Shown here in pieces: positions 2,096 to 50,464 of a stretch of 64,000 nucleotides of DNA (positions within the stretch are counted from its first letter, which is position 1; every line of letters starts with the position of its first letter). Below the pieces are notes generated by a model that did no database searches, was not told where the DNA came from, and saw only the letters and a list, made by a program, of their open reading frames with translations. The position numbers and the translations under genes are program-made. Source of the stretch: Anaerolineales bacterium (GTDB lineage Bacteria > Chloroflexota > Anaerolineae > Anaerolineales > Villigracilaceae); assembly GCA_014860745.1 (NCBI GenBank), contig JACZJC010000080.1:1-64000 (forward strand), read 5' to 3'.

Positions 2096-2695
2096 TTATT
2101 TTTCAAGTAAATATAATGCATGTTTCATTATCACCGCAGATGATTGGTATTCTTTATCTAATAATTTAAGACCTATTTCGCCAAAGATAGACCTCCACTC
2201 TTCATCGCTTTTGTTTGTGTGAGGCTGGTCATAAAATTCCAAATTCATAAGGCTATCCAGCGCGGCGGTCATGAATTTATGAGTGGGGGACGTAACGATA
2301 TCTTCAAGCACGAGAATCTTTCTTGATATCCGTCTTGCCTCAGCCAACACTTCTGTGGGATCAGGTGTATGGTGCAACACAAACAGGATCAATGAAGTTT
2401 CAAATTGATCATCCTTGAACGGCATCCTATAACCGTCATACAGTGTCGGCAAAACCGTATCAACGATGCTGAAATTTTCGACATCCAATGGAAAAACTTT
2501 TAAATCTTGTTTTATCAATGTTTCGGTCACTGTACAACTGGCTGGACCGATATCCAAAATGAGTTCGCCTTTCTTTAGATAAGGGGAGATTATATTTGCC
2601 AGGTCTCTCGCTCTTACTTTCAATATTTGATAAACCAGTTTTTTAGAAAGATTATATTTGTATAAGACATCGAGTAGTTTGTTGGAACTTTTCAT
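2096..2695 (-). CDS. Class I SAM-dependent methyltransferase
   Basis: A 199-residue protein with the Rossmann-type SAM-binding signature LILDIGPASC (Asp about 48). It continues with an acidic residue after the second strand (LDVENF) and the post-motif LFVLHHTPDP, typical of methyltransferase_11-like enzymes. ATG 2695 is preferred over an upstream TTG at 2764 because GGGAGGAG lies about 11 bases before it. The substrate cannot be read. The gene is divergent from the glycosyltransferase at 2824 and close to the lipopeptide-type cluster, so a tailoring role is possible but only inferred from position. The C-terminal half is variable and shows no second domain. Confidence 0.75.
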   Translation of the reverse strand: MKSSNKLLDVLYKYNLSKKLVYQILKVRARDLANIISPYLKKGELILDIGPASCTVTETLIKQDLKVFPLDVENFSIVDTVLPTLYDGYRMPFKDDQFETSLILFVLHHTPDPTEVLAEARRISRKILVLEDIVTSPTHKFMTAALDSLMNLEFYDQPHTNKSDEEWRSIFGEIGLKLLDKEYQSSAVIMKHALYLLEK

Positions 2696-2790
2696 TGTTG
2701 CAAAGCTCCTCCCGAAGCTTTTCTGTACGGGACACCTGATAAGAATCGATGCATGAAGAAGCAAGCATCAGAAATTACACCAACAACATG

Positions 2791-2823: not shown

Positions 2824-4074
2824 ATGAGTATCACCATTTTAGCGGTAGGTTCCCAGGGAGATGTTCAACCCTATCTTGCTCTTGCGGTCGGGTTGAAAAA
2901 TGCGGGATATAAGGTTAGATTCGCGGCAAACTCGAATTTCGCCGGTTTGGCAGCCCATTATAATCTGGAGTTTTTTTCAATCCAATTGGATTCCTTCGAG
3001 TTTACGCAAAATAGCCAAACGCAATCCTGGCTTGACGTGGAATTTATTCCCAGTCTTATTCTGAGGACGAATCGCGTTATCAGACCCATGCTGGACCAGA
3101 TCATGAAGGATGTTTTCGCCGCCTGTCAGGGAAGCGAGACGGTCATCTATCATAGTTATGCCCTGCCTTTTGTCTACTATATCGGCAAACAGCTGGATAT
3201 TCTTTGTATTCCGGCAAACTTGCATCCCATGCCCACCCGTTCGTATCCGGCGATATTGTCGAACATCAAGCGAAGCCCAAGCAAGACATTGAATTTATTG
3301 ACTCACCTGCTTGTGCATCAGCTCTCCTGGCAGGTTTTTTTGCCGGTTGTCCGAAAGCACTGGAATGGCAAAACACTTCCCCCTTTCATTGGACCGTATA
3401 GGGAAATTCTTAAAGGACGAGAGCCAATACTATGTGGATACAGTCCGCTTGTGCTGCCAATATCCGAGGACCTGCCAGGGCACGTTTCCATTACTGGATA
3501 TTGGTTTCTGGAGCCGCATCCCAATTGGCGGCCGGATCCTGCGCTGACTTCATTTTTGAAATTAACTCCGCGTCCAATTTATATCGGTTTTGGCAGCATG
3601 GGAAACCCCGCAAAAAACCAGGACACAGCAAATATAATTCTTGAAACTCTCGCAAGAACAGGCGTGCGGGCAGTCCTATCCACAGGGTGGAGCGGCTTGG
3701 GAACTGACCGTCCGTTACCAGAGAATATTTTTCTTATCAAAGATACTCCACATCGCTGGTTATTTCCTCGAATGGCTGCAATTGTGCATCATGGCGGGGC
3801 AGGGACAACGGGAGCCGCATTAAGTGCTGGGGTTCCGAGTTTAATAATTCCCCATTTTGGAGACCAGTATTATTGGGGAAGACGTGTCGCTGAACTTGGC
3901 GTTGGCCCTGAACCCATTGAGCGTAAAAAGCTTTCCGCAGAACGGTTGGCTGCGGCAATTTCTACTGCCTTGCATGATTCTGGAATGCTTGAGAGGGCGG
4001 CCAGCTTGGGTGCGAAGATTAGCGCGGAGGATGGTGTTACCCGTGCCGTGGAGATAATCCGCAAACACATTTAG
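2824..4074 (+). CDS. GT1/GT28-type glycosyltransferase (MGT family)
   Basis: This 416-residue protein transfers a sugar from a nucleotide donor to a lipid or natural-product acceptor. It has the N-terminal GT28-like fold beginning SITILAVGSQGDVQPYLAL, with the glycine-rich acceptor-side loop. The C-terminal donor-binding block VHHGGAGTTGAALSAGVP (about 320) is followed by PHFGDQYYWG, the usual signature of the sterol/rhamnosyl UGT-like branch. Length matches the family. It stands alone on the plus strand and is convergent with the phosphopantetheinyl transferase, nine bases away. Sugar and acceptor cannot be told from sequence. Glycosylation of the product of the adjacent megasynthase is a reasonable but unproven idea. 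Confidence 0.85.
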   Translation: MSITILAVGSQGDVQPYLALAVGLKNAGYKVRFAANSNFAGLAAHYNLEFFSIQLDSFEFTQNSQTQSWLDVEFIPSLILRTNRVIRPMLDQIMKDVFAACQGSETVIYHSYALPFVYYIGKQLDILCIPANLHPMPTRSYPAILSNIKRSPSKTLNLLTHLLVHQLSWQVFLPVVRKHWNGKTLPPFIGPYREILKGREPILCGYSPLVLPISEDLPGHVSITGYWFLEPHPNWRPDPALTSFLKLTPRPIYIGFGSMGNPAKNQDTANIILETLARTGVRAVLSTGWSGLGTDRPLPENIFLIKDTPHRWLFPRMAAIVHHGGAGTTGAALSAGVPSLIIPHFGDQYYWGRRVAELGVGPEPIERKKLSAERLAAAISTALHDSGMLERAASLGAKISAEDGVTRAVEIIRKHI

Positions 4075-4083
4075 CGCGGGGGA

Positions 4084-4827
4084 TCAAATATGAACGGCAA
4101 GATTCCAATCCCAAAATCTGAAATCTAAATCAATACCTTCAACAGCCAGCGCTCCTGCGTAGTTCGGAGCCACATCCAGCGGACGCAATGTCCAACGAGC
4201 GGATTCCTGCGGGTCTGGGCGGGTTGCTCGAAGAATAGCAGGTTGACCGGGGGTAAGGGAAACATCAAAACTTTCCAACGGTAAAGACAGCCCCAATCCT
4301 TGCGCCTTGATATAGGCTTCTTTGCGAGTCCAACAATTGAAGAAACCGATTCCTCTTTGTTCGGGAGGCAAACCCATTAACTCGGAGACTTCAATCTCTG
4401 AAAAATTACGGCTGGCAATGTTTTCCAGTTCCATATCCGGGCGGATACGCTCTATATCCACACCGATTTTTCGGTCTAAAGTCACTGCGACCATGGCGAA
4501 GTCGCCGGAGTGCGAGAGATTGAATTCCAAATTGGAATTTAATAACGCAGGCTTCCCATATGAATTAACAGAAAATGTCAATTCGACAGGCTTGCAGCGG
4601 AGGTAACGCCCCAATATCGCGCGCAGGCTTCCGTGCGCGGCGATGAAACGGTCTCTGTCTGCCGGGAAGTGAAAGCGGGCGGCTTTTTGGGTCTCATCCG
4701 CTGACAGGGTGGATTCGATCAATTTAATGGAATCAGATGACAGGTCGAGTGCGATGCGCCAGACATCGACATAATGACTCTCCAGTTCGAGAGAGTCAGG
4801 CGGGGAAGTCCAGTTATCCTTTTGCAT
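4084..4827 (-). CDS. 4'-phosphopantetheinyl transferase, Sfp/HetI type
   Basis: A 247-residue enzyme that moves the phosphopantetheine arm of CoA to the active serine of carrier domains. The two diagnostic motifs are present: KIGVDIERI (about 119-127), with magnesium-binding acidic residues, and WTRKEAYIKAQG (about 165), with the catalytic Glu and Lys. Size and two-lobed layout fit the Sfp type that serves NRPS/PKS proteins rather than the 120-residue AcpS type. Its start overlaps the thioesterase stop by 14 bases. It is the last gene of the megasynthase operon, so it probably activates the three carrier domains encoded just upstream. Confidence 0.93.
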   Translation of the reverse strand: MQKDNWTSPPDSLELESHYVDVWRIALDLSSDSIKLIESTLSADETQKAARFHFPADRDRFIAAHGSLRAILGRYLRCKPVELTFSVNSYGKPALLNSNLEFNLSHSGDFAMVAVTLDRKIGVDIERIRPDMELENIASRNFSEIEVSELMGLPPEQRGIGFFNCWTRKEAYIKAQGLGLSLPLESFDVSLTPGQPAILRATRPDPQESARWTLRPLDVAPNYAGALAVEGIDLDFRFWDWNLAVHI

Positions 4828-5557
4828 GAGATGATGTTATCTCAGCAACCATGGAAGCGATCACGGATTGACGAGCAGTGTTGATGAAGAAATGATCGCC
4901 TGAAAAAATTTGCGATTTAAAACGGCCCTTTGTTTGGCAGCCCCAACCTTCCAAACGATCCCGGTCAACGTGAAAATCGTCCGTTCCACCGAAAGCGATG
5001 ATGGGGCAGCCCAGCCGATGTTCATTGGACGTATATTGATAACTTTCGGCGGCTTCAAAATCAGCGCGCAAGACTGGGAGAAGCAACTCCATTAATTCTG
5101 CATTGCTCGCTACTTCAGTAGGGAGACCATTTAGCTCCTGCAAAGATCTTATGAATTCAGAATCGGGCAGCGCATGAATAGGGCGATTTGGATTTGGAAC
5201 ATGCGGCGCGCCACATGCCGAGACAAAAAGAATCTGGGGCTGAGGGCTTATGCGGCGCGCAACTTCAAAAGCAAGCACAGCTCCAAAACTATGCCCGAAG
5301 AAAAAAAACGGCTTATCCAACTCGGGTTGAATGGCGTTCGCAATTTCTTCAACTAAAACAAAAAGGTCTTTGATCAAAGATTCGTTAAAGCGCGATCCTC
5401 TTCCAGGATAATGAACGATGCTCACTTCAATGGTGTTTGGAAACTCGGCAATCCATTTATTGAACGATGATGGAGCGCCGCCTGTGTATGGAAAGACAAA
5501 CAGGCGGGCAGTTGCGCTTGAATTGGGCTGCGGGCAAACGAGCCAACGATTTTTCAT
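4814..5557 (-). CDS. Type II thioesterase (GrsT-like)
   Basis: A 247-residue alpha/beta hydrolase of the external editing thioesterase group of NRPS/PKS systems. It frees carrier arms that carry wrong or stalled acyl groups. The nucleophile elbow is FFGHSFGAVLAFE (Ser about 87), with Asp in GTDDFHVD and His in SGDHFFI completing the triad. It begins with the typical LFVFPYTGGAPSSF. It is 14 bases downstream of the megasynthase and overlaps the phosphopantetheinyl transferase. The megasynthase has its own reductive release domain, so this enzyme is more likely a housekeeping editor than the release factor. Confidence 0.92.
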   Translation of the reverse strand: MKNRWLVCPQPNSSATARLFVFPYTGGAPSSFNKWIAEFPNTIEVSIVHYPGRGSRFNESLIKDLFVLVEEIANAIQPELDKPFFFFGHSFGAVLAFEVARRISPQPQILFVSACGAPHVPNPNRPIHALPDSEFIRSLQELNGLPTEVASNAELMELLLPVLRADFEAAESYQYTSNEHRLGCPIIAFGGTDDFHVDRDRLEGWGCQTKGRFKSQIFSGDHFFINTARQSVIASMVAEITSSHAKG

Positions 5558-5571: not shown

Positions 5572-8500
5572 TCACTGAACACTTTGCGAATTTTGGGTGT
5601 TGAGTGAGGAGTCTTTATACAGGCCATCAGGGACGCCCTCCGAAGTGAAATACTTCAGATACCGCGTAAGCAATGGACCATTAACGGGATGACAGACAAT
5701 ACCGCTGCCATCCAACCTTGTGAGCGTGTTCGTGAGGTCAAACTCTGGCATAAAGACTTGTTTTTCTTCCACTTCTTCGAGCAGCGGCAGGTAAGGCTCC
5801 CATCCATCCGAAGGCATATAAGCGGACAGCCTGAAGAGTTCCGCGCGCCATTCATCGAAAGGCAATCGACGGGCATTGAAGCCTTGCTCGGTCATCCATT
5901 CTGCCAGCTTGCTAAAGTGAAGTGCTTCGGGGTTATCCAGATGGTAAATCTTGCTCAAGTTATCAGAATTCCTTGAGAGCTGCACAATCGCGGCACTCAC
6001 AAAATCCACCGGCACGATGTTGACCATGACATCAAGAGTGGGAACACTTCCCAAAAGGATGCAGGCGCGAGTCATGCTGGAAACCAGGTTGTCGTTGTTC
6101 CATGCGCCGGAGATGCTATGCCCCGAAACCAAGCCGGGACGATAAATGGCATAGGGAATGCCGCGCTCGCCTGCCTGCTTCACCAGCTTTTCTGCCACCC
6201 ATTTACTTTGGGCATAGCCGCCGAACGGTGCACCGACTTCATCTAAATTTACATCTTCACGGATAATGCGCCCATCATTAACATCACCCGAATACAAAAT
6301 GGACAACGTGGAAATGAAGTGAACCGGCTTTAGTTTTATGCGGCTTGCGAGCCGTAAAACTTCCTGTGTCCCCAGCACGTTGGATGCCTTATGCGCGTGA
6401 TATGGATAAACAAAGTTAACCAGCGCGCCATTGTGATAGATCACATCGATCTCATGGGTAAGTTGTTCAAAGACTTCATTTGTAAGACCCAGTCGGGGTT
6501 CACCCAGATCACCCAGTATGGGTTTGATGCGTTCCGCGAATGCATCGTCCCATAATAAATAATTATTCAAATTGCGTTTCAAACGCTGGATGCCCATTGC
6601 AGCATCTTCAGCACGCAACAAACAATACACATCCGCAGATGTCATCCTGAGCAGGTCATGCAGCAGAAATGCCCCAACGAAACCCGTTGCACCTGTGAGC
6701 AAAATATGTTTTGGGTCATCGATATGGTTATAAACGAGACCGCCCGCAGTAATGTCAGAGTCAAGCTGCGCTTCTGCGGTTAATTTCTCCAAACTTAATT
6801 CTCCGCTCTGTATAAAATTGCCGCGGCTTGCATACACCACTTCCCCTTCGCCTTTTATCGCCACATCGATGATCCTCGCCAGGTTGGCAACGGTCGGTTG
6901 TTCGAATAAAGCCCGCAAAGGCAGATGTGCAGATTCAAGCTTGTATTTTTCTCGCAATTTAAATACCAGGCGTGTTCCCAATAACGAATGACCGCCCAGG
7001 TCAAAAAAATTATCATGCACGCCAACCGCGAAATGACCGTTTGAAGTTTCCAATCCCAACACTTCTGCACAAATCTCTGCCAATTCTTTTTCCAAAGATG
7101 TGCGCGGCGGGACATACGGCAAACGAAGATCGGGTCGCGCCTGTGTTGGCTGCGGCAATGCTTTGCGATCGACTTTTCCGTTTGGAGTTAATGGCAGCGA
7201 TTCCATATTGACAAAAATGGATGGAACCATATATTCGGGAAGCGCCTGACGTAAATACTCGCGCAATTGATGCGCATCCGCTTCTTTCTCAGCTGAAGCG
7301 GGTACTATCCATGCAACCAGACTCGCCTCTGACGATTTTTCCTTCCAAACCCCTACGACAGCCTGCCGCACGGATGGATGACTCGCTAAACGAACCTCGA
7401 TCTCTCCCGTCTCAATGCGGAACCCGCGGACTTTAACCTGCTGGTCACTGCGCCCGAAGAATTCAATATTTCCATCGGGGAGATAACGGGCAACATCGCC
7501 AGTATTGTAGATAGTAGAAGAAACACCAAATGGATTCGGAATAAATCGCTCAGCAGTCAACTCAGGGCGGTTTAAATATCCACGGCTGACCCCATCCCCA
7601 CCGATGTAAAGATCGCCGATCACACCTACAGGAACAGGCTGTAGTTCGGAATCCAAAATATAGATCTGTGTATTTGCAATCGGTCGCCCGACAGAAATCG
7701 TATTGGAAACGCCATGAGACTCTTTGGATGTGACCCGATACAACGTAGACCAGATCGTAGTCTCGGTTGGTCCATAAAGATTCCACAATTCCGCGCCACG
7801 TTCCAACAAGCGTTCTGCCAAATCGGAGACCAAGGCTTCGCCGCCGCACAGGATCTTGAGGTCAGCATTCCCCTTCCAACCCGCCTCCAGCAAGGACCGC
7901 CAACTGGCAGGTGTCGCCTGCATCACAGTTGCATTGGAGCGTGTCAGAGTATCAGCCAGAAGAGTTCCGTCCGTTACGCTCTCTGAACTGGCGATCACGA
8001 CCCGCGCTCCGACAGTCAGCGGCAGCAGCAATTCCAAAACGGCAATGTCAAATGAAAGTGTAGTGACCGCAAGAAGTGCATCCCCTGCAATGATATTCAA
8101 ACTCTGCCGCATGGAACACAGGAAATTGACCACCGCCTGATGATGGATCTGAACTCCCTTTGGTTTTCCTGTCGAACCTGACGTATAGATCACGTAAGCA
8201 AGGTCGCTGGGTTTGGCTTCTTTCTTCCCTTCGATAAACTCAGGGCGTCGCTTTCCTCTTTTCGCTGACACTTGTTCCAGAGCGTCCAAACAAATGACCT
8301 GTGCCTTATGCTCCGGCATAGTTGCTTGAAGACTTGTGTGCGAAAGAATAAACGATGCTTCAGAATCAGCCAGCATGAAAGCAAGCCGCTCAGATGGGAA
8401 TGACGGGTCCAATGGCAGATAGGCTCCGCCAGCCTTGAGGACGCCTAGTAATGCAACCAACATATCGAGCGAGCGCTTCACATAGATGCCAACCAGAATC

Positions 8501-11500
8501 CCTGGCTTCACTCCCTGACCAATCAAGATCTTTGAGAGTTCATCAGCACGATTGTCCAGTTCCTTGTAGGTCAGGCTCTGACTTTCAAATTGCACAGCGA
8601 CAGCATTGGGTGTGCGTTTCACCTGCTCCTGAAACAAGTCGTGAATGCAAAGCTCGCGCGGATAATCCGTTTGAGACTCATTCCACTGAACGAGGATTTT
8701 CTCACGCTCAGACTCGCTTAGCAGACAATAGGATGAAATTGGTTTCAACGGGTCGGAGACGATATCCCGCAACAAGGTGTGGAAATGCTCCAACATGCGT
8801 TGGATGGTTGCAGAGTCAAAGAGATCAGTATTGTATTGAAGAGCCGCCGCCAGACCATCGTCCGTTTCAGCCATCATCATGGTTAAATCAAATTGAGCGG
8901 GTTCGCCTTTCAACGCAATGGATTCAAATGTCAGTCCGTTCATTTCCATGCGTGCACCGTCAATTCCCAGCGCAAAGGGACTGAGCGCCTGCACTTCCGC
9001 TTCCTGCGCTTTTTGTAGAATGAACATGGTTTCAAAAAGCGGTGGACGGCTGGAATCGCGTTGTAATCCCAAACGCTTGGAAAGTAATGCAGGCGGATAA
9101 TCCTGATGCTCAAATGCGCCAAGCGTCGTCCGGCGGACGCGCTGAAGGATCTCTTGGAATGTAGGCGTGCCTGAAAAATCTGCGCGCAATGCAATCGGGT
9201 TGATGAAATAACCGATCAAGTCGGTCAATTCCGAATGGCTTCGTCCAGCCGTGACAGACCCAACCACGAAATCTTCTTGATTCGAATAACGATGCAATAA
9301 AGTCTGGAAGGCGGCTAACAGAGTCATAAACAAGGTTGAGCCATTTTCCTGCGCAAGAGATTTCAACCCCTTGAAAAGTTCTCCATCCATGAAGATATGT
9401 TCCGAGTCGCCGCGATAGGTTTGCATCGCCTTGCGCGGACGGTCGGTAGGCAAGTTCAAGGCGGGCAATTCGCCAGAAAGTTTATCCTGCCAATACTCCC
9501 AAAGCTTCTCCCCTCGCGGACTCTCCAACATCGCTGTCTGCCAGCGGACATAGTCTGCATAGCGCGCCTGAAGTTTCGGCAATTCGATCGGTTCACCAGA
9601 CTTATTCGCTTCGTACACTGCAAGCAGCTCGCGCACAAAGATCGTCATCGACCAGAAATCGGTGATGATGTGGTCCATCGAAAGCAGAAGAACACTTTCA
9701 GATTTTTCTTTCGTCTCAAATAACAGCACACGTACGGCTGGCTCATTTTCCAGATCAAATGAACAATGCGCCTCGGCGGCAAGTCTGCCGCGCAATTCTT
9801 CCAGCCCAATACCTGACGCATCTACGATCTGTAACTTAACGCTCGCCGCCGCATGGACGCGCTGAACAGGCTCACCCTCCAGGACATGGAAAGTACTGCG
9901 CAACGCTTCGTGGCGGTCGGCTACCTGTTCAAGGGCAAGCTCAAGAGCAGCCACATCCAAATCACCAAGAATACGGACTGCTCCCGCCACGTTGAAGGAA
10001 TTATCTTCAGGCAAAAGTTGATGCAGGAACCAAAGCGCCTGCTGCCCATACGAAAGCGGACTCTCAAGTGATGATTCTTGCGAGATAAGAAGCGGCGCCT
10101 CATTCGAAGCCTCAGGCGAATCCAGTTCCCCAAGCATTTCCCTGGCGAGGCTGGAGATCGTCGGACCCTGAAGCAGGCTTGCAATTGAAAGATTGGCTCC
10201 TATTTTGGATTCCAGCGAATTCTTAAGTTCAATCGCCATCAACGAATCGAGACCGACTGTATCCAACGGTTGATCAAGATCCAGTCGGGCAGCATCCATG
10301 CCTAAGATACGAGCAGCGTTTCGCTGGATGAAATCTTCAAGGACATGCTGGCGTTTCGCTGGTTCCGTATTTAATAGAAGAGTGCGATCCAGAGTATTCG
10401 CGGGAAGTTCTTTTGCCTTTGGCGCTTTCTGATGGCTTGGCGTCTTTCCATTATTTTTTTCAGGCTGAGTCTTTGGGGCTGACACAACTTGTGATTCTTC
10501 CGAAACCACAAACTTCTTCTCAGCGGATTCGAACCAATAGCGTTGATGGTCAAATGGATAATTGGGCAGGGAAACTTTTTGGCGTGGGTAGCCTGCATCG
10601 AAGGCAGCCCAGTTCACATCCGCACCCTGGGTGTAGAGTTTGCCGAGGCTGTCTAAAATGATCTGCCAGTCATCCTGTCCCTGACGCAAAGAGGGCAGCC
10701 ATGCAGCTTTTGATTCTGGCAGGCAGCGTTTGCCCATGCTTAACAACGTGGGGCTGGGACCAATCTCCATAAAGGTATCAATGCCGAGGTTGACAAGAGA
10801 CTGCATCCCTTCGGCGAATTTCACTTCTGCACGGATGTGCTGCCGCCAGTAAAAAGCATCAGGCGCAGAATCAGGTTCGAGAATACCGCCGAACAGGTTC
10901 GAGCTTAGAGAGAGGCGCGGAGCGTTGAATTGAATCCGCCGCGCGGCTGATTCAAAATCATCCAGAATCGAATCCATCAACGGAGAATGGAACGCATGCG
11001 AAACCGTGAGCGGCTTGGATGAAATGCCAAGTTTGGTCAGGGCATCCAAAACATTTTGCACGGCGAATTTCTCGCCAGAGATCACCGTGTTATCGGGTCC
11101 GTTCACGGCGGCGATGGAAACTTGAGATTGAAACGGTTTCAAAACATCTGCCACGCGCGAAGCATCCGCGAAGACAGCAGCCATGCTTCCGTTGTTTGGA
11201 AGGCTGCCCATCAAGCGTGCGCGTTCGGCAATGAGACGCAGACCATCTTCCAATGTGAAGACGCCTGCGATGCATGCAGCAACATATTCTCCGACGCTAT
11301 GCCCAAGCACCGCTTGCGGCTCGAAACCCCAAGAGCGCCACATTGCAGCCAATGCGTATTCAAATGCGAAAAGTGCGGGTTGGGTGTAGGTGGTTTGATT
11401 GAGTAATGTATTGTTTTTATCTTGCGGATACATCACGTCCAACAACGGGCGATCTAAAATGGAATTCAGAATTTCGGCGCATTGATCCGACGCTGCGCGA

Positions 11501-14500
11501 AAGACGGGTTGCTTTTCATAAAGTTGACGCCCCATGCCGATGTATTGCGCGCCCTGCCCCGTGAAAAGGAAAGCGATCTTCGGCTGGGCGCCAGGTTTTG
11601 CATGACCCGTTATTAAGGCAGGAATATTAGTGTTGGAAATAAAAGCATCCAACCCAGTTTTCAGTTCGGCAGGCGTGCTGGCTTGAATGGTCAAGCGATG
11701 TTCAAAGTGTGAACGAGTTGTATTTGCCGTAAAGGCATAATCACTTGCAGGCAATTGCGTTGACTCGATTTGAGCGCTTGTCTGTTCAGCCAATTCAAGC
11801 AATGCAGAATCCGTCTTTGCGGACAAAGCAAAAATGTGGCGCGGACGTTCCATGGTTTCTGACGGCAGTGTTGAAGCAAGCAATGGTGCATCGGAAAGAA
11901 TAATGTGTGCGTTCGTGCCGCCGAAGCCAAAGGAACTCACACCCGCAAAGCGCGGTTGCTCGCGGCGCTTCCACGGACGCAAATACGTTCCAATTTCGAG
12001 GCGCGAGTTTTCCAGGGAGAGATATGGATTGACTTCTTTTAAATGAAGGTGAGGTGGAATGGCTTCGTGTTGCATGGCAAGCACAGATTTGATCAGTCCT
12101 GCAATTCCTGCCGCAGACTCAAGATGACCAATATTCGTTTTTACCGAACCGACCAACACCTTGCCATTCGTCTGCCCATCATCAAGAACCGCGTGCAACG
12201 ACGCCATCTCGATCGGGTCGCCAAGCGGCGTACCCGTGCCATGCGCTTCCACATAACCGATCTGTTGCGGCGCGACCTGCGCATTCGACAATGCCTGCCG
12301 TATGACATCTTGTTGAGCGAGTCCGTTCGGGGCAGTCAGACCGTTGCTGCGCCCATCCTGATTCACAGCCGAACCGCGGATCAACGCAAGAATGTTATCT
12401 CCATCACGGATCGCGTCTGACATGCGCTTCAAAATAATCACTCCGCAGCCTTCGCCGCGCACATATCCATCTGCACTCGCATCGAATGTTTTGCAACGTC
12501 CATCGGGAGATAGCATTCGCGCTTGTGAGAAAGTGATGGTCAATTCGGGAGTGAGGATTAAATTCACGCCTCCGACCACGCCCAGATCTGATTCGCCGTT
12601 CTGGAGGCTTTGACACGCCAGGTGCGCCGCCACCAATGACGATGAACAAGCCGTATCCACTGCCATGCTAGGTCCGCGCAAGTCATAGAAATACGACAGT
12701 CGATTCGCGGCGATGCTATGAGCGTTACCTGTCCCAGCGTAAGCATCAATTTTTTCAGCATCATCAAATTGCAAACGTGAGTAATCATTGCTGCTGATGC
12801 CAACGAACACACCTGTACGAGTCCCTGCTAATGATGCAGGTGGGATAAATGCATTTTCGAGAGCCTCCCAGCTCACTTCAAGTAAGAGGCGTTGTTGCGG
12901 ATCCATGCGCGTTGCTTCACGCGGAGAAATCCCGAAGAAATGCGTATCAAACAAATCTACATCGTCAAGGAAGCCGCCCCAACGAGAAGTGATCTTTCCA
13001 GCTGCAGCAGAATTGGATGAATAAAAGGCATCCACATTCCAGCGATCTACGGGGACTTCGCTGATGGCATCCACTCCGTTTCGGAGCAGTTCCCAAAAGG
13101 CTTGCGGATTTGCGGCTTGCGGAAAGCGGCAACTCATCCCGATGATGGCGATCGGTTCGCGTGTGAAGTTTGAAGAAGGTTGAATGGGAACGGGAGTAGA
13201 AATAGTTTTTGTTGGTTGAGAATCATTCGCCAGATGATTCGCCAACAACTCGATGGTGGGATAATCCCATGCGAGAGTAGGCGCGAGTTTACGACCGAGA
13301 AAATCTTCCAAATCTCCCGTGAGACTGACCGCCTGAACAGAGCCGAGCCCATAATATGTAAACGGCTGACGAGGATCTATGGATGCGGCATCCAACTCCA
13401 ACATGGAGGCGATGCGAGCCACCAGCCAGGCTTGAATTACATTCGCCCTCACTCCTAATCCCTCTCCCAAAGGGAAAGGGGAACGACTCCCTTCCCCTTT
13501 TGGGGGAAGGGCTGGGGAAGAGGGTGCTTTCGCTCGCCATTCACCCACGACTTCCAGCTCGCCATTTAGAAAAGCTGTTTTACAAGCGCGGCGTTGAATT
13601 TTTCCGCTGGATGTTTTGGGAATGCTCATCGGCTTGATCAGAACAATGGCAAAAATCTGCAGGTCATGCTTATCCGCCACTGCCTGACGAATAGATGCAG
13701 CGACTTCATTGATATCCGCTTGTCGATTCTGTCTTGTAACTTCTTGAACGATAACGAGCTGCTCTTTACCGTCCTCTGTGATGGAGAATGCTGCTCCACC
13801 GGCGGGCTGCAAAGCAGTGTGACTCGACTCAACGGTTAGTTCAATATCCTGGGGATAGTGATTGCTCCCGTGAATAATGATCAGGTCTTTCAAACGCCCC
13901 GTGATAAAAAGCTCGTCATTCTGTAGAAAGCCCAGATCGCCCGTGCGAAGGAATGGACCTTCGTTCGTATCTGCAATATAAGCCTGAAACGTCCTGCGTG
14001 TTTCCTCTTCCAAGCGCCAATATCCTTGTGCCACACTGGGTCCGGCAACCCAAATCTCGCCGACTTGGTTTTTACCGCAGCGCAGTAACGTGTTTGGATT
14101 CACGATAACGATCTTTTGGTCAATGATCGAAGGTCCGCAGTTTACCATTGTCACTGAACCTGCTTCATTTGCAAGTGCAGGAACCACACGGTCATTTTCC
14201 AAAGATTTTCGATCCGCAGTAAAAGTTCGCGGTTCAGATGGACCGTCTGCACCGGATACGATCAGGGTGCTTTCTGCCATGCCAAAACACGGGTAGAAAG
14301 AAGTTTTTCGGAAGCCGCACCCGGCAAAGGCGCGCGCGAAGCGTTCCAACGTCTCGGGGCGAATCGGCTCAGCTCCGCAAAATGCCAAAGTCCAGGAGCT
14401 CAAATCCAGTTTTTCCATCTGCTCGGGCGTGACTTTGTCAACGCACAGATCGTAAGCAAAATTGGGCGCGCCGCAGGTGTTGCCGTGGTAGCGAGTGATG

Positions 14501-15279
14501 GCTTCCAGCCACCGTACCGGGCGTTGCAGGAAAGAAGGCGGCGACATCAAAGTAGTTTCTCCACCCAGGTACATCGGTTCCAAAATGCCGCCGATCAACC
14601 CCATGTCGTGATAACTTGGAAGCCAGAAAACGCCCTTCACGGTCGAGTCGATGTGAAATCCGCGGCTGATGGCTTCGAGGTTGTGCATCAGGTTGCCATG
14701 GCTGAGCATGACCCCTTTTGGCTGACTTGTGGAACCGGAGGTATATTGAAGGAATGCCAGGGTGTCGGTGGTGATATTGGGATCGCGCCAATCCGCTTCC
14801 AGCCCCGCCGGTACTTGGTCGGTGTTCAACCAATGCAGCGCTTTTAAATCTGGAGCATGTTCGAATCGCTTTTCGATGTTCGAGAGGATGGTTGTGGTGG
14901 TCAGCGCAAAAGCGGCGCTTGAATCATCCACAATGGACTTGATGCGAGGCACCGGGCGGTTAAGACGCGGCGGGTAGGCGGGTACGGCAGTCACACCGGC
15001 GTATAAACACCCCATGAAAGCCGCAATATAATCCAAACCGGGGGAATAAAGCAGGAGCGCGCGCTCCCCTTTGGCGCCAAAACTTTCCAGCCACGCCCCA
15101 ATGGCGCGCGCCTGGCGATCAAGTTCCACATAGTTGATGGTGATGTCTTGAGATTCGTCATCCAGGAAAAATCTAAACGCCATTTTGCCGGGATGTTGAT
15201 CTGCTCTCCAACGCAGGAGGCTAACCAGTGTGTTTGTTTTATAAGATGAATTTGAGGTCAGGAGGTAAGATTGCTTCAT
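5572..15279 (-). CDS. Hybrid megasynthase FAAL-ACP-KS-AT-ACP-C-A-PCP-TD
   Basis: One 3235-residue polypeptide. Domains in order, by approximate residue: fatty acyl-AMP ligase 1-575 (YTSGSTSQPKGVMLSHGN); ACP 610-690 (GLGSVQA); ketosynthase 706-1130 (VDTACSSS, Cys about 877; EAHGTGTPLGDP; NIGHLE); acyltransferase 1236-1530 (GHSVGEY; HAFH, malonyl type); ACP 1650-1720 (VGLDSLMA); condensation 1740-2180; adenylation 2226-2710; PCP about 2768 (LGGHSLL); thioester reductase 2859-3200 (GATGFVG, YAQSK). No KR, DH or ER is present, so the beta-keto group should stay. Aligning the A pocket to GrsA gives D-I-L-Q-L-G-L-I-W-K, the code published for glycine. The condensation motif reads DHIITDF, keeping the second His and the Asp. 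A palindrome-derived insert lies between FAAL and the first ACP. Predicted release is a beta-ketoacyl-glycinal or its alcohol. Confidence 0.95.
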   Translation of the reverse strand: MKQSYLLTSNSSYKTNTLVSLLRWRADQHPGKMAFRFFLDDESQDITINYVELDRQARAIGAWLESFGAKGERALLLYSPGLDYIAAFMGCLYAGVTAVPAYPPRLNRPVPRIKSIVDDSSAAFALTTTTILSNIEKRFEHAPDLKALHWLNTDQVPAGLEADWRDPNITTDTLAFLQYTSGSTSQPKGVMLSHGNLMHNLEAISRGFHIDSTVKGVFWLPSYHDMGLIGGILEPMYLGGETTLMSPPSFLQRPVRWLEAITRYHGNTCGAPNFAYDLCVDKVTPEQMEKLDLSSWTLAFCGAEPIRPETLERFARAFAGCGFRKTSFYPCFGMAESTLIVSGADGPSEPRTFTADRKSLENDRVVPALANEAGSVTMVNCGPSIIDQKIVIVNPNTLLRCGKNQVGEIWVAGPSVAQGYWRLEEETRRTFQAYIADTNEGPFLRTGDLGFLQNDELFITGRLKDLIIIHGSNHYPQDIELTVESSHTALQPAGGAAFSITEDGKEQLVIVQEVTRQNRQADINEVAASIRQAVADKHDLQIFAIVLIKPMSIPKTSSGKIQRRACKTAFLNGELEVVGEWRAKAPSSPALPPKGEGSRSPFPLGEGLGVRANVIQAWLVARIASMLELDAASIDPRQPFTYYGLGSVQAVSLTGDLEDFLGRKLAPTLAWDYPTIELLANHLANDSQPTKTISTPVPIQPSSNFTREPIAIIGMSCRFPQAANPQAFWELLRNGVDAISEVPVDRWNVDAFYSSNSAAAGKITSRWGGFLDDVDLFDTHFFGISPREATRMDPQQRLLLEVSWEALENAFIPPASLAGTRTGVFVGISSNDYSRLQFDDAEKIDAYAGTGNAHSIAANRLSYFYDLRGPSMAVDTACSSSLVAAHLACQSLQNGESDLGVVGGVNLILTPELTITFSQARMLSPDGRCKTFDASADGYVRGEGCGVIILKRMSDAIRDGDNILALIRGSAVNQDGRSNGLTAPNGLAQQDVIRQALSNAQVAPQQIGYVEAHGTGTPLGDPIEMASLHAVLDDGQTNGKVLVGSVKTNIGHLESAAGIAGLIKSVLAMQHEAIPPHLHLKEVNPYLSLENSRLEIGTYLRPWKRREQPRFAGVSSFGFGGTNAHIILSDAPLLASTLPSETMERPRHIFALSAKTDSALLELAEQTSAQIESTQLPASDYAFTANTTRSHFEHRLTIQASTPAELKTGLDAFISNTNIPALITGHAKPGAQPKIAFLFTGQGAQYIGMGRQLYEKQPVFRAASDQCAEILNSILDRPLLDVMYPQDKNNTLLNQTTYTQPALFAFEYALAAMWRSWGFEPQAVLGHSVGEYVAACIAGVFTLEDGLRLIAERARLMGSLPNNGSMAAVFADASRVADVLKPFQSQVSIAAVNGPDNTVISGEKFAVQNVLDALTKLGISSKPLTVSHAFHSPLMDSILDDFESAARRIQFNAPRLSLSSNLFGGILEPDSAPDAFYWRQHIRAEVKFAEGMQSLVNLGIDTFMEIGPSPTLLSMGKRCLPESKAAWLPSLRQGQDDWQIILDSLGKLYTQGADVNWAAFDAGYPRQKVSLPNYPFDHQRYWFESAEKKFVVSEESQVVSAPKTQPEKNNGKTPSHQKAPKAKELPANTLDRTLLLNTEPAKRQHVLEDFIQRNAARILGMDAARLDLDQPLDTVGLDSLMAIELKNSLESKIGANLSIASLLQGPTISSLAREMLGELDSPEASNEAPLLISQESSLESPLSYGQQALWFLHQLLPEDNSFNVAGAVRILGDLDVAALELALEQVADRHEALRSTFHVLEGEPVQRVHAAASVKLQIVDASGIGLEELRGRLAAEAHCSFDLENEPAVRVLLFETKEKSESVLLLSMDHIITDFWSMTIFVRELLAVYEANKSGEPIELPKLQARYADYVRWQTAMLESPRGEKLWEYWQDKLSGELPALNLPTDRPRKAMQTYRGDSEHIFMDGELFKGLKSLAQENGSTLFMTLLAAFQTLLHRYSNQEDFVVGSVTAGRSHSELTDLIGYFINPIALRADFSGTPTFQEILQRVRRTTLGAFEHQDYPPALLSKRLGLQRDSSRPPLFETMFILQKAQEAEVQALSPFALGIDGARMEMNGLTFESIALKGEPAQFDLTMMMAETDDGLAAALQYNTDLFDSATIQRMLEHFHTLLRDIVSDPLKPISSYCLLSESEREKILVQWNESQTDYPRELCIHDLFQEQVKRTPNAVAVQFESQSLTYKELDNRADELSKILIGQGVKPGILVGIYVKRSLDMLVALLGVLKAGGAYLPLDPSFPSERLAFMLADSEASFILSHTSLQATMPEHKAQVICLDALEQVSAKRGKRRPEFIEGKKEAKPSDLAYVIYTSGSTGKPKGVQIHHQAVVNFLCSMRQSLNIIAGDALLAVTTLSFDIAVLELLLPLTVGARVVIASSESVTDGTLLADTLTRSNATVMQATPASWRSLLEAGWKGNADLKILCGGEALVSDLAERLLERGAELWNLYGPTETTIWSTLYRVTSKESHGVSNTISVGRPIANTQIYILDSELQPVPVGVIGDLYIGGDGVSRGYLNRPELTAERFIPNPFGVSSTIYNTGDVARYLPDGNIEFFGRSDQQVKVRGFRIETGEIEVRLASHPSVRQAVVGVWKEKSSEASLVAWIVPASAEKEADAHQLREYLRQALPEYMVPSIFVNMESLPLTPNGKVDRKALPQPTQARPDLRLPYVPPRTSLEKELAEICAEVLGLETSNGHFAVGVHDNFFDLGGHSLLGTRLVFKLREKYKLESAHLPLRALFEQPTVANLARIIDVAIKGEGEVVYASRGNFIQSGELSLEKLTAEAQLDSDITAGGLVYNHIDDPKHILLTGATGFVGAFLLHDLLRMTSADVYCLLRAEDAAMGIQRLKRNLNNYLLWDDAFAERIKPILGDLGEPRLGLTNEVFEQLTHEIDVIYHNGALVNFVYPYHAHKASNVLGTQEVLRLASRIKLKPVHFISTLSILYSGDVNDGRIIREDVNLDEVGAPFGGYAQSKWVAEKLVKQAGERGIPYAIYRPGLVSGHSISGAWNNDNLVSSMTRACILLGSVPTLDVMVNIVPVDFVSAAIVQLSRNSDNLSKIYHLDNPEALHFSKLAEWMTEQGFNARRLPFDEWRAELFRLSAYMPSDGWEPYLPLLEEVEEKQVFMPEFDLTNTLTRLDGSGIVCHPVNGPLLTRYLKYFTSEGVPDGLYKDSSLNTQNSQSVQ
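13445..13525. repeat. Dispersed GC-rich palindrome inside the megasynthase
   Basis: Two back-to-back palindromic blocks (CCCTCTCCC...GGGAAAGGGG, then CTTCCCC...GGGGAAGGG) read in frame as a linker between FAAL and ACP1. They encode LPPKGEG and PLGEGLGVR. The same sequence type occurs at 28150-28196, 50232-50281 and 58750-58799. Confidence 0.8.
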
Positions 15280-15743: not shown

Positions 15744-18700
15744 TTGTCCCAATCGAACAGTTTCAAGCTAAGCCTTATCAATGATCAAAGCAGCACTCCG
15801 TCCAAAGAATTCGAGCTAACAAAGTCGGAAATCATCATTGGACGTGAAGACAATGTAGATATTACCATCCCTGCTTCAGCTGTCTCGCGCCGCCATGCCA
15901 GGCTGATGCTGGAAGGCGAGAATTACGTACTGGAGGATCTGGGGAGTAGTAACGGTACGTTCGTCAACGGCGAAAAATTAGTTCAAAAGCGTTCACTTAA
16001 GTCGGGGGACAAGATCCGGCTCGGGCAAATCATCAACCTGGTTTATTACGCACCTGTTACAGAATCCAATCAAATTGCGATAGGCAAGCCAATCGAGCCT
16101 GATAAAACTGCAATCCGCCCCGCCCCCGCCAAACCATCCCATGTTATGCAGACGATGATGGGAGAAGCGCCGATTGTTCAGGCGAGTAACGGTCCGCGCG
16201 AACTAATCGTGACCATCGCAGGCGGAGACACACAAACCCATCCTTTAACGCGTCCCTCCTTTTCGATCGGACGGCTGGAAACAAACGACATTGTCATCCC
16301 GTCACAGATCGTTTCAAGCAAGCATGCACGGCTTGAGCAGGTCGACGACGGGGGATACAAGTTGGTTGTGGCTCCAGAAGCCAAGAACCCGGTCCAATTT
16401 GAAGGGCGGCCCATCGATGGCTCGCGCATTCTACGTCACGGAGACATGTTGAGGATTGGCAGCCTGGATCCCGGCGTGATGGTCACGATTACCTATAACG
16501 CCCCCAGTGAAGCGGCTCAGCATGTGGAGCGGGATATCGTGTTCGGGGAAAAGACGTTAATTCAGATCGGGCGCGACCCCGGCAATGATGTTGTGATACC
16601 ATCCCCCAATGTATCGCGATTCCACACCCAAATCCAAAAAGTAGGGCAGCGTTATCGCGTGGAGGACCTGCACAGTTCCAACGGAACCTATGTCAATGGC
16701 GAGCGCATTGATGGATCCGTATGGCTGAAGCCCAATGATTCCATCCGCATCGGACAATATCGATTCGTGATGGGCAAGGACCAACTCGCCAGTTACGACG
16801 ATGGAAACGGCTTGCGGGTGGATGTGGTCGGGTTGAACAAATGGGTCCGCAAGGATTTGAATATTCTTCAAAATATCTACGCCTCTTTCAACCCCAGGGA
16901 ATTTATCGTTGTGGTTGGGCAAAGCGGTGGCGGAAAATCCACGTTTGTAGATGCGGTTGCAGGCTATCGTCCCGCCACCCCTCCCTCGAAAGTGTACGTC
17001 AACGATATTGACATATACATGCATTTTGACGCGATCCGCAATGAGATCGGGTTTGTACCTCAAAAAGATATCATCCACATGGAGTTGACCATCTATCAGG
17101 CGCTTGATTACGCCGCTCAACTGCGCATGCCGGCTGACACCTCCCCTGAAGAACGACACATACGGATCATGGAAGTTCTTGAAGATCTAGACTTGACGCA
17201 TCGCAAAGATGTTCAGATCAGCGGTCTCAGTGGCGGACAGCAAAAGCGCGTCTCGATTGGCGTTGAATTGTTGACCAAGCCCGGTCTTTTTTTCCTGGAT
17301 GAACCCACATCGGGTCTGGATCCTGGAACTGAAACGGCCCTTATGCAACTGATGCGACGCCTGGCTGACCAGGGTCGAACAATTATACTGATCACTCATG
17401 CCACAAAAAATGTAATGTTGGCAGATAAGGTCATTTTCCTGGCAAGAGGCGGTTATCTGGCATGGTTCGGACCTCCAGATGAAGCCTTGGCTTATTTTGA
17501 CCAATTCCGCTCGGAGCGCGCCCGCAGGTCCGGCAAGATCGAGTTCGATGAGATCTATGCCATTCTGGATGATCCGAGCAAAGGCAAAGCGGAAGATTGG
17601 GCAAACCGATATCGTGAAAGCAACGCCCATGCTGAATATGTCCTAAAACCATTGGCTGGCAAGCTGTCTCCACAAAGTGCCGTGACGATACCCCAGCCCG
17701 AACGATTGCCCCAAAAAGCAGGCAATACCAGGCAGGTTTCTTCATTAAGACAGTTGCTGATCCTGTCAGCCCGTAATATCAAAATCCTGACCCGCGACCG
17801 CTTCGCACTGGGATTAATGCTTGCAACAGCGCCTGTGGTCAGTTTGTTGGATGTAATCTTATCGCTGGTCATGGGGAGAAATATTTTCGATTTCTACAAG
17901 GGTGACATGTCCCAGGTCATGATCACACTTTTTCTGCTAACCATTTATGGCATCATGGTGGGTGGAATTTCGCAAATGCGCGAGATCGTCAAAGAGCAGG
18001 ATATTTACAGGCGGGAAAGGCTGGTCAATCTAAAAATTCTGCCTTACGTGTTATCGAAAATCTGGGTGGCTGCATTGTTGGCGCTTTACCAGGCAGTGGC
18101 CTATACGGTCGTGCATTACCTTGCGTTCAAAATGCCGGGAGGCGCACTCGAATTCTTCCAGATCTATATCACCATGACTTTGGCAACCTTTGCTGGAATG
18201 ATGCTGGGACTCTTTGCATCGGCGTTGGCGCCGAATTCCAGTTCCGCGCCATTAATCGTTATCATTTTGATGCTGCCGCAAATTGTGTTGGCGGGCGCGT
18301 TGATTCCAGTTCCGAGTTTTGTCAGCGCTCCCTTCTCAACGCGCTGGGCGTTCGAATCGTTGATCGCCATTTCGGGATCCGGGTCGGATGTGGCAAAGGA
18401 TGTCTGCTGGGCGCTGCCCCCAGACGTGCGTAACGCGATGACGTTGGAAGATAAACTCGCCAACAACTGTAATTGCATGGGCATTAACATGCTCAAAGTG
18501 GAATCCTGCAACCACCCTGGTATAGGCAAGTTCTACATCAATCTGGTCGACGAGCCTTTGCCGATTGCCCCCGCACCGTTGCCTCCGGAACCCGTTCGTC
18601 CGGTCGAACCTCAAGACCAATCGGACAACGTTGCAATGGCGGATTTCTTTGCCCAACTCAAAGCCTACGAACTCGAAGTTGAACTGTACAAGGCGCAAGC

Positions 18701-18944
18701 CGATCAGTATCAGAAGGATCAAGTCGAGTATCAGACGGTAATCAGCCAGCTGAAGGTGCAGGTCGCAACTGGTGAAGCCGTGGTCAGGACCTTCATCAAT
18801 GGGTCGGGCTTCGCCTATGTTGATAAGGATGATACAGTGGCGTATCACTCCAAGGTCCTCTTGACGTGGGCTGTGCAAGGTTTCATCATTCTGTTGCTAT
18901 TTGGGGCAATACTGTATCTGCAAAAACGAAAAGACGTGATATAG
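15744..18944 (+). CDS. Triple-FHA ABCG-type transporter
   Basis: A 1066-residue fusion. Three forkhead-associated domains lie at about 25-95, 165-240 and 268-345 (for example SRRHARL, SSNGTFVNGEKL, SSNGTYVNGERI). They bind phosphothreonine. An ABC ATPase follows at about 365-600 with Walker A GQSGGGKST (392), signature LSGGQQKR (495) and Walker B FFLDEPTSGLD. Then come about five membrane segments (690-870), a large outer loop with clustered Cys (CNCMG, ESCNHPG), and a last membrane helix (1041-1060). The loop carries a proline stretch (LPPEPVRPVEP, about 946) and a charged coil. The start is TTG 15744 with AAAGGA eight bases before; the nearby ATG 15736 is out of frame. It is followed after six bases by a lipoprotein and then a Ser/Thr kinase, which could phosphorylate an FHA ligand. 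The substrate is unknown. Confidence 0.9.
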   Translation: MSQSNSFKLSLINDQSSTPSKEFELTKSEIIIGREDNVDITIPASAVSRRHARLMLEGENYVLEDLGSSNGTFVNGEKLVQKRSLKSGDKIRLGQIINLVYYAPVTESNQIAIGKPIEPDKTAIRPAPAKPSHVMQTMMGEAPIVQASNGPRELIVTIAGGDTQTHPLTRPSFSIGRLETNDIVIPSQIVSSKHARLEQVDDGGYKLVVAPEAKNPVQFEGRPIDGSRILRHGDMLRIGSLDPGVMVTITYNAPSEAAQHVERDIVFGEKTLIQIGRDPGNDVVIPSPNVSRFHTQIQKVGQRYRVEDLHSSNGTYVNGERIDGSVWLKPNDSIRIGQYRFVMGKDQLASYDDGNGLRVDVVGLNKWVRKDLNILQNIYASFNPREFIVVVGQSGGGKSTFVDAVAGYRPATPPSKVYVNDIDIYMHFDAIRNEIGFVPQKDIIHMELTIYQALDYAAQLRMPADTSPEERHIRIMEVLEDLDLTHRKDVQISGLSGGQQKRVSIGVELLTKPGLFFLDEPTSGLDPGTETALMQLMRRLADQGRTIILITHATKNVMLADKVIFLARGGYLAWFGPPDEALAYFDQFRSERARRSGKIEFDEIYAILDDPSKGKAEDWANRYRESNAHAEYVLKPLAGKLSPQSAVTIPQPERLPQKAGNTRQVSSLRQLLILSARNIKILTRDRFALGLMLATAPVVSLLDVILSLVMGRNIFDFYKGDMSQVMITLFLLTIYGIMVGGISQMREIVKEQDIYRRERLVNLKILPYVLSKIWVAALLALYQAVAYTVVHYLAFKMPGGALEFFQIYITMTLATFAGMMLGLFASALAPNSSSAPLIVIILMLPQIVLAGALIPVPSFVSAPFSTRWAFESLIAISGSGSDVAKDVCWALPPDVRNAMTLEDKLANNCNCMGINMLKVESCNHPGIGKFYINLVDEPLPIAPAPLPPEPVRPVEPQDQSDNVAMADFFAQLKAYELEVELYKAQADQYQKDQVEYQTVISQLKVQVATGEAVVRTFINGSGFAYVDKDDTVAYHSKVLLTWAVQGFIILLLFGAILYLQKRKDVI

Positions 18945-18950: not shown

Positions 18951-19904
18951 ATGCAAAAAAATAAACTCGTCATTTTTCCGTTGATCTTGATTATGGTTTC
19001 CCTGGCATGTGGGACGGGCGGCAGCGACGCCGCAACCGAAAGCACGCTTGAGGCGATCAGCGCCCAGATTCGCGCGACTGGCACCGCATCCGCCGCCCAG
19101 GGCTCGCAAGCCCCACAAGCAGTGGATACGAGTTCAGACTCGTTAACCGCAACAGCCGTGGCATTTGCTCCAATTCTGGCAAGCCTGCCAAAGTACGGGG
19201 TTGATCCGTCTGAGGGCAGGATCGGCTGGGTACATCCGCCCGTGTCATTGGACGCATCCGGGTACCGTGAATTCGAATATATAAATTACTATATTGGCAC
19301 CCTGGCGCAGGATTTTGTCATCTCGGCGGATATCACCTGGAATACGGTTGGCAGTACCTCGGGCTGCGGTTTTGTTTTGCGGTCCGATGGGAACGAGAAC
19401 GCCCTGGATCAATATGTAGCGATCATTACGCGAGTGGCAAGTGGGCATTTCCTTTTTTTCACCATGTCTGACGGCGAGGTGGTGACCGGGCGCGATATTT
19501 ACGCCCGCTATAAAGATAAGACTTTCAGGTGGGAAAATGACACAACCAACCGCCTGACGATCGTGGGTCGGGGAAATCGCTTTTGGGTCTACACCAACGA
19601 TACACTGATCGGTGAGATTGATCCGAGCGCTCCTCCCCCTCAACCCAATTTGCCTCCTGAACCGGAGAAGCCCGCTAATCAGTCTGACCCCCAAGCCATG
19701 GCGCTTTACGAACAGCAAAAAGTTGAACATGCGGCGATCATCCAGCAAATGCAGGCGGATTATGCCGCGCGGCAGCGAGCCTACAGCTCGGCGGATACCG
19801 TCTTCGATCGAGGGTTTATGGCGATGGTGGCATTAAGCGAATCCGGGCGCAGCACGACATGCAAGTTCGATAACGGATGGTTGTTCCTCATAGATTCACC
19901 CTAG
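18951..19904 (+). CDS. Lipoprotein with concanavalin-like domain and proline/coil insert
   Basis: A 317-residue exported protein. The signal peptide ends in the lipobox VSLAC (Cys 20), followed by a Thr/Ser/Ala-rich spacer. Residues about 95-225 look like a beta-sandwich of the LamG/DUF1080-like kind (GFVLRSDGNENALDQYVAII, FWVYTNDTLIGEID); the fold call is tentative. Residues about 228-285 form a proline run (LPPEPEKP) and a Gln/Ala-rich coil that includes QSDPQAMA. The same layout, LPPEP followed by QSDNVAMA and a coil, occurs in the outer loop of the preceding transporter, suggesting that the two proteins meet outside the membrane. It is translationally close to the transporter and precedes the kinase. 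Confidence 0.75.
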   Translation: MQKNKLVIFPLILIMVSLACGTGGSDAATESTLEAISAQIRATGTASAAQGSQAPQAVDTSSDSLTATAVAFAPILASLPKYGVDPSEGRIGWVHPPVSLDASGYREFEYINYYIGTLAQDFVISADITWNTVGSTSGCGFVLRSDGNENALDQYVAIITRVASGHFLFFTMSDGEVVTGRDIYARYKDKTFRWENDTTNRLTIVGRGNRFWVYTNDTLIGEIDPSAPPPQPNLPPEPEKPANQSDPQAMALYEQQKVEHAAIIQQMQADYAARQRAYSSADTVFDRGFMAMVALSESGRSTTCKFDNGWLFLIDSP

Positions 19905-19992
19905 CCGCAAACAGTGCGGCAAGCCGTGTTATGATTTGAATTCGTGTTTCAGTAGTATTAACTGCATTCATGCTTTTATTTTAGGAGAAGTG

Positions 19993-50458: not shown

Positions 50459-50464
50459 AAATCC

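Follow-up and report, generated by a model that had tools for sequence, protein, structure and literature searches.

The window, by which we mean the whole stretch of 64,000 nucleotides of Anaerolineales DNA analysed here, is part of a 105,263-base contig from a genome of 4.32 Mb. A check of its open reading frames and translations revealed a single ORF for a protein of 3235 aa, in which Pfam matches and motif positions place nine collinear domains on one chain in the order FAAL-ACP-KS-AT-ACP-C-A-PCP-TD (Table 1). The Pfam families matched are AMP-binding (twice), Condensation, ketoacyl-synt, Acyl_transf_1, PP-binding (three times) and NAD_binding_4; Pfam placed one of the three carrier stretches, and the other two were located via their serines. 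Reductive release, as proposed in the first-pass annotation of this DNA, is borne out by an NCBIfam match to TIGR01746 (thioester reductase; 340 bits, cut-off 213) and by the presence of GATGFVG and of T2991, Y3022 and K3026. A further match, to NF038078 (myxochelin MxcG), lies far under its cut-off (807 versus 2300 bits); the products of MxcG are an amine and an alcohol.

Pfam and domain spacing revealed no ketoreductase in the extension module: the stretch between the end of the AT (residue 1554) and the beginning of ACP2 (residue 1651) is too short to hold one. A KR/DH/ER set is likewise absent from the synthase and from the linked window genes scanned with Pfam. A single KS-AT-ACP module without a cis ketoreductase is what had been predicted earlier, namely one extension with the keto group kept. 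At the level of sequence, the protein is confirmed as a FAAL-PKS-NRPS hybrid with a terminal reductase, and its earlier description as a single-protein FAAL-PKS-Gly-NRPS line with reductive release stands in its ORF, its nine domains and its motifs.

Table 1. Synthase, its domains and the linked genes, with positions in the window.
Feature	Position	Strand	Basis
FAAL-ACP-KS-AT-ACP-C-A-PCP-TD synthase, 3235 aa	5572..15279	(-)	ORF, Pfam, NCBIfam, motifs
FAAL, residues 17-582	13534..15231	(-)	652.8 bits to PDB 7r7f, aligned over 17-580
ACP1, borders approximate, Ser647	13210..13437	(-)	Pfam and serine motif
KS and extension, residues 708-1195, C878/H1013/H1052	11695..13158	(-)	Pfam and motifs
AT, residues 1237-1554, GHSVG, HAFH	10618..11571	(-)	Pfam and motifs
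ACP2, residues 1651-1713, Ser1679	10141..10329	(-)	Pfam and serine motif
C domain, residues 1740-2196, DHIITDF, second His kept	8692..10062	(-)	Pfam and motifs
A domain, residues 2216-2702, pocket DILQLGLIWK	7174..8634	(-)	Pfam and pocket reading
PCP, borders approximate, Ser2765	6865..7092	(-)	Pfam and serine motif
TD thioester reductase, GATGFVG, T2991/Y3022/K3026	5638..6708	(-)	Pfam, NCBIfam, motifs, model
Stand-alone thioesterase (TE), GHSFG	4814..5557	(-)	Pfam; in 20/24 family loci
Sfp/HetI-like phosphopantetheinyl transferase (PPTase)	4084..4827	(-)	Pfam, NCBIfam; in 19/24 family loci
GT-B glycosyltransferase	2824..4074	(+)	Pfam; nearest solved are sterol 3-beta-glucosyltransferases
Methyltransferase (Methyltransf_11)	2096..2764	(-)	Pfam
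FHA-FHA-FHA-ABC exporter, ABCG-like, divergent from synthase	15744..18944	(+)	Pfam, co-occurrence
Lipoprotein-like protein, predicted jelly-roll fold	18951..19904	(+)	Model, co-occurrence
PknB-type Ser/Thr kinase, adjoins lipoprotein and exporter	19936..21552	(+)	Pfam, NCBIfam

Genes linked to the synthase

A PPTase and a thioesterase belonging to the line had been claimed before, and both indeed adjoin the synthase: the TE starts 14 bp past it and overlaps the PPTase gene by 14 bp. The stand-alone TE is probably an editing enzyme. However, the compact cluster drawn in the first-pass annotation is too small, since linkage and co-occurrence show that the glycosyltransferase, the methyltransferase, the FHA-ABC exporter, the lipoprotein and the kinase belong to it as well. 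The GT-B protein aligns with sterol 3-beta-glucosyltransferases along nearly its full length. Homologues of the methyltransferase align from residue 12 or 24, and its true start therefore probably lies downstream of the listed TTG. The lipoprotein matched no Pfam family. Its structural model, of middling quality (pLDDT 70), has CBM66 as its best VIA-align match (Z 16.0, rmsd 2.6, 146 residues) and predicts a carbohydrate-binding-like fold, which by itself shows no function. No MbtH protein was found in the window's genome, while matches were obtained in 2 of 14 control genomes.

Just beyond the methyltransferase end of the cluster lies a DDE-type transposase gene (HTH_32, DDE_3; 529-1725), and some 33 kb of the window encode three LuxR regulators of the MalT type, each about 900 aa long (25656-28373, 47759-50476 and 56223-58976).

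FAAL loading and glycine selection

Inspection of the synthase revealed the KS triad, the GHSVG and HAFH motifs of the AT (HAFH being, we assume, a malonyl-type motif), the three carrier serines, the A-domain cores and the TD motifs. The best solved relatives of the first domain are 7r7f, which is labelled Polyketide synthase, and the fatty-acid--AMP ligases FadD32, FadD23 and FadD28. The alignment to 7r7f spans the N-terminal domain with few and small gaps, which points to a domain of FAAL type and not of CoA-ligase type. Loading by a FAAL, as first proposed, agrees with this full-length alignment and with the intact FAAL motifs. We also looked for an inactive active site in the FAAL or the TD, either of which had been named as grounds for doubting the scheme, and found the motifs of both intact.

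The ten-residue pocket of the A domain reads D-I-L-Q-L-G-L-I-W-K, the same as in the earlier reading. It is identical to that of the solved chain 5u89 at the nine positions compared out of ten, and equal at seven of nine compared positions to that of 4zxh (DILQLGVVW); we take both of these A domains to accept glycine. The pattern DILQ[LI]G[LMV][IV]W recurs in 25/25 homologues, the final Lys being unread in one. The prediction that the A domain takes glycine is well supported by these pockets, and the comparison with solved chains turned up no contrary one. Further evidence comes from L035, L037 and L038, in which FAAL, ACP1, KS and AT are 72-86% identical to those of the window and C, A, PCP and TD 47-66%. 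A Ser replaces the TD Thr in these three proteins. Since their pocket remains of the glycine type despite the divergence of C-A-PCP-TD, glycine looks selected in the synthase family. The divergence pattern of the three also suggests a swap of the entire glycine-release module; the TD tree described below still puts them in the Chloroflexota clade.

The terminal reductase and its electron count

The best solved match of the TD by sequence is MxaA of myxalamid synthesis (349 bits), followed by 8v1x (268) and then by a match of 118 bits. Foldseek with an AlphaFold model (pLDDT 80.7) gave the same order, with 4w4t (MxaA) on top at 44% identity and a TMq of 0.90, and 8v1x next at 37-38%. The 8v1x chain is a Streptomyces coelicolor PKS thioreductase and presumably an aldehyde-former. 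A tree of 83 TDs grouped the Chloroflexota family (19 rows) with a support of 100/99 and did not join it to MxaA; its backbone is unresolved and leaves the relation to MxaA and 8v1x open. The tree therefore does not settle the electron count, and we dropped the assignment of a TD class from phylogeny.

In the cited passage of PMC2835699, the myxalamid reductase is among those shown to be four-electron enzymes, and the reductases of nostocyclopeptide and saframycin and Lys2 are two-electron ones. An excerpt of PMC10168641 describes aldehyde over-reduction by such R domains as substrate-dependent. Release as an alcohol is supported by MxaA being the nearest solved TD in both sequence and predicted fold; against it stand the lack of a sister placement with MxaA and 8v1x as the next closest chain. 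The comparison with two- and four-electron reductases that the first-pass annotation had suggested thus yielded a nearest solved relative and a tree that does not decide, and sequence alone is compatible with either mode of release.

Conservation of the locus in relatives

We compared 24 family loci: L021-L039 (19 loci; L040 dropped), L043, L044 and L134-L136. A TE follows the synthase in 20 of them (located by tblastn in L022 and L024) and a PPTase in 19. Sequence upstream of the synthase is covered in 17 loci, and 16 of these have the FHA-ABC exporter there in divergent orientation. A 233-aa ORF separates synthase and exporter in L037. In L025, a Lon protease gene occupies the upstream place, and the exporter is on the same contig about 8 kb past the opposite end of the synthase. 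The lipoprotein was seen in 15 loci (L121-L135), with a PknB-type kinase adjacent in 14/14 where the flank is covered; the kinase of L131 is a fragment only.

The head-group genes vary. GT-B was found in five of the 24 loci, a TMEM260-like gene in 13, a sulfotransferase gene downstream of the synthase in two more distant relatives (L034 and L036), and none in four. The TMEM260-like GT-C enzyme and GT-B are unrelated glycosyltransferases, and within the stretches covered no locus holds two of the three head-group genes together. The methyltransferase accompanies GT-B in 4/5 loci; in L023 the contig ends. Among the loci without a head-group gene, L035 has a contig end there, and a probe search detected no glycosyltransferase or sulfotransferase in about 3, 10 and 5 kb downstream in L039, L044 and L136, respectively, so that not every synthase has such a gene next to it.

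Other genes recur on the kinase side. A class V aminotransferase gene lies past the kinase in two synthase genomes (L125 2869-4056 and L129 3422-4541), and an AMP-binding enzyme gene lies near it in three (L121 3054-4571, L122 3168-4685 and L130 1570-3300; Pfam family for L121 and L130). Separately, L040 (genome G013) encodes a different, 2891-aa PKS-type protein with a terminal TD, near which lie genes for a glycosyltransferase (38% identical to that of the window), a sulfotransferase-family protein and an ABC protein; L040 is perhaps a second type of TD-lipid locus within the genus.

Co-occurrence within the genus

The synthase is present in 14 of 57 genomes of the genus (TD identity at least 45%). 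We left out L040, whose TD is 40% identical and whose architecture differs, and G003 (TD 34%). An open frame of at least 3200 aa is found in 11 of the 14, the other three being contig-cut or broken; with homologues in 14 genomes, the synthase is not an artefact of one assembly.

The lipoprotein occurs in 14/14 synthase genomes and 0/43 others (Fisher p 1.3e-13), and the membrane half of the exporter in 14/14 versus 2/43, those two at 50 and 41% identity. GT-B orthologues (at least 69%) are present in 6/14 versus 0/43 and TMEM260-like orthologues (at least 58%) in 8/14 versus 0/43, and one or the other in 13/14 versus 0/43 (p 5.7e-12); both p values treat genomes as independent and ignore kinship. 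The exception with neither glycosyltransferase is G004, whose contig breaks off within the PPTase gene. A FabF-like KS (at least 69%) accompanies the synthase in 8/14 genomes and is absent from the 43 others. The identity limits define these counts, given that GT matches at E 1e-50 occur in 36/57 genomes (the next best after the orthologues being 44%) and FabF matches at E 1e-90 in 56/57 (next best 45%). All co-occurrence counts refer to one genus and depend on host relatedness.

A proposed product and its alternatives

We propose, at a probability of about 0.5, that the locus makes an exported N-(3-oxoacyl)ethanolamine-type lipid, released by four-electron reduction and given a polar head. 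The FAAL would adenylate a fatty acid and pass it to ACP1, KS-AT-ACP2 would add one malonyl unit and leave the 3-keto group in place, and C-A-PCP would join glycine to the chain. In two NAD(P)H-dependent reductions, the TD would then convert the PCP thioester into the primary alcohol, an N-(3-oxoacyl)ethanolamine. GT-B in the window locus, and the TMEM260-like GT-C enzyme or the sulfotransferase in relatives, would add the polar head, and the lipid may also be methylated. The FHA-ABC half-transporter, controlled by the kinase encoded nearby, would export the lipid, and the carbohydrate-binding-like lipoprotein would sit at the cell surface.

This proposal builds on the observed domain order, motifs, glycine-type pocket, missing ketoreductase and gene linkage; from these we infer four-electron release, a hydroxyl that takes the head, export of the product and a role at the surface. 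Because the keto group is kept and no hydroxylase was found among the annotated neighbours (a subset of ORFs, by Pfam), the alcohol made by the TD is the simplest acceptor hydroxyl. The nearest relatives of GT-B act on a lipid alcohol, a sterol, which we count in favour of an alcohol lipid. Moreover, two unrelated glycosyltransferases, a sulfotransferase, an exporter and a lipoprotein beside one core lead us to expect an amphiphile with a varying head, and the linked genes suggest a glycosylated or sulfated product over the small ring compound first envisaged.

That ring compound is the principal alternative, a serious one although in our view less likely. Here a two-electron TD would release a beta-ketoacyl-glycinal that closes by intramolecular aldol (Knoevenagel) condensation to a 3-acyl-pyrrolin-2-one, perhaps tailored afterwards. 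The route is chemically sound and would be expected if the TD stops at the aldehyde: the synthase provides every group it needs (no KR, glycine and a TD), 8v1x, which ranks second among solved TDs, is presumably an aldehyde-former, and the beta-ketoacyl-glycinal could cyclise ahead of a second reduction. A bacterial precedent exists in mutanoclumpin (cited part of PMC12403116). However, the nearest solved TD is that of MxaA, alcohol-forming in the passage of PMC2835699 cited above, the subset of neighbouring ORFs that we annotated yielded no oxidoreductase for tailoring the ring, and the glycosyltransferases, the sulfotransferase and the surface-export set suit a hydroxyl-bearing amphiphile better.

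In an improbable third reading, the head-group enzymes use another acceptor, such as a fatty tail that bears a hydroxyl, and the end set free by the TD serves as an imine, for reductive amination or for attachment to a cell component. The acceptor of the glycosyltransferase is itself a prediction, and the head might go to a hydroxyl on the tail, to a lipid carrier or to a surface glycan; the FabF-like KS suggests a special fatty chain in the eight genomes that have it, and the MxcG match, far under its cut-off as it is, points to a system with amine and alcohol products. The aminotransferase past the kinase in L125 and L129 lends slight support, yet it is present in just 2 of the 13 kinase-side stretches (L121-L133) and absent from the window, and no hydroxylase was found among the annotated neighbours. 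Finally, a degenerate or inactive synthase is very improbable: the C motif DHIITDF deviates from the usual HHxxxDG, and the homologous genes of L029 and L039 are split into several ORFs, by assembly error or decay, but other relatives have intact copies, all other catalytic residues inspected are there in the window, and 23 of the 25 homologues given have a readable stretch here, every one with the second His and the Asp; in these 23 the motif begins with D in 17, H in 4, N in 1 and S in 1, and its Gly position holds F in 22 and L in 1.

The product may be an alcohol lipid or a pyrrolinone, and we favour the alcohol lipid. More broadly and more tentatively, at less than even odds, Anaerolineales may make undescribed surface lipids, endocannabinoid-like N-(3-oxoacyl)ethanolamines from one nine-domain protein, which would receive exchangeable sugar or sulfate heads from unrelated enzymes and leave by kinase-controlled FHA-ABC export beside a carbohydrate-binding-like lipoprotein. 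If the alcohol-lipid proposal is true, an assembly-line enzyme is tied to envelope chemistry in Anaerolineae, the synthase offers a one-protein test bed for aldehyde versus alcohol release, and a definite lipid family is predicted that can be searched for by mass in enrichments. If the pyrrolinone forms instead, the locus holds a bacterial one-protein route to 3-acyl-pyrrolinones.

Distribution and relation to known systems

A TD match at E 1e-40 occurs in 14 of 396 genomes sampled evenly across the class, six of them with frames of at least 3200 aa, and at E 1e-60 in 15 of 400 genomes from the phylum, five with such frames, all in the window's own family. Among the matches listed, the nine-domain one-protein line is found in at least six of 80 TD loci (L041-L044, L046 and L047), all from Chloroflexota, with domain orders read by BLAST with the window domains, to which methyltransferases, ketoreductases and similar domains are not visible. 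By the same BLAST and among the same matches, L056 and L067 of Dulcicalothrix show FAAL-ACP-TD and A-ACP-TD, a possible minimal line for fatty-acid release. To our knowledge, the products of NRPS/PKS clusters in Anaerolineae are largely unknown. The cited passage of PMC11748557 reports such clusters in general terms and describes Anaerolineae as a little-understood group that is plentiful in some sediments. A targeted literature search met no description of the synthase with its linked gene set in titles and the beginnings of abstracts, and we claim nothing wider.

Several known systems share parts of this scheme. Among solved chains the TD is nearest to that of MxaA in sequence and predicted fold, but the TD tree does not make the two sisters, and MxaA works at the end of a longer line for a polyketide. 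Columbamides have a serinol end formed by reductive release, with serine, separate proteins and halogenases; in the excerpt of PMC11837247, those of Moorena are FAAL-associated acyl amides at the level of hypothesis. For mutanoclumpin (mcg, oral streptococci), the cited part of PMC12403116 describes a FAAL-started PKS-NRPS whose last steps are a keto extension and the addition of serine, followed by an R domain; it proposes that the chain leaves as an aldehyde and closes by an aldol reaction to a five-membered lactam, and backs this with 13C labelling. The window line likewise has a FAAL start, a keto extension, a terminal amino acid and reductive release, whereas mcg has serine last, several modules and proteins, and macrocyclic and pyrrolidone products.

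The exporter resembles Rv1747 of Mycobacterium tuberculosis, a G-subfamily FHA half-transporter beside its modulating Ser/Thr kinase PknF (cited passage of PMC3908365). The likeness is one of domains: a single chain here carries FHA domains, an ABC ATPase and an ABC2 membrane domain, and a gene for a Ser/Thr kinase lies close by. Rv1747 has two FHA domains and the exporter here three. We know of no synthase beside Rv1747-PknF. The cyanobacterial heterocyst glycolipid (hgl) islands, for which a passage of PMC11804610 names PKS, thioester reductase, glycosyltransferase, ABC transporter and PPTase together, share this gene set with our locus; by contrast, the hgl product has no amino acid, the hgl PKS has KR, DH and ER, and the hgl exporter is different. 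Mycobacterial glycopeptidolipid (Mps1/Mps2) is, in the cited part of PMC3537567, a glycosylated and methylated surface lipid with an N-acylated nonribosomal core, a PKS-derived acyl chain and an alaninol end. Our locus may parallel it in the N-acyl nonribosomal core, in the amino-alcohol end proposed here and in the glycosylation of that end, with a glycosyltransferase orthologue in 13/14 synthase genomes, and departs from it in having one residue (glycine), one protein, no MbtH found and an FHA-ABC exporter. With one C-A-PCP module and no tripeptide-amino alcohol core, it may work like the glycopeptidolipid family but is not a member of it.
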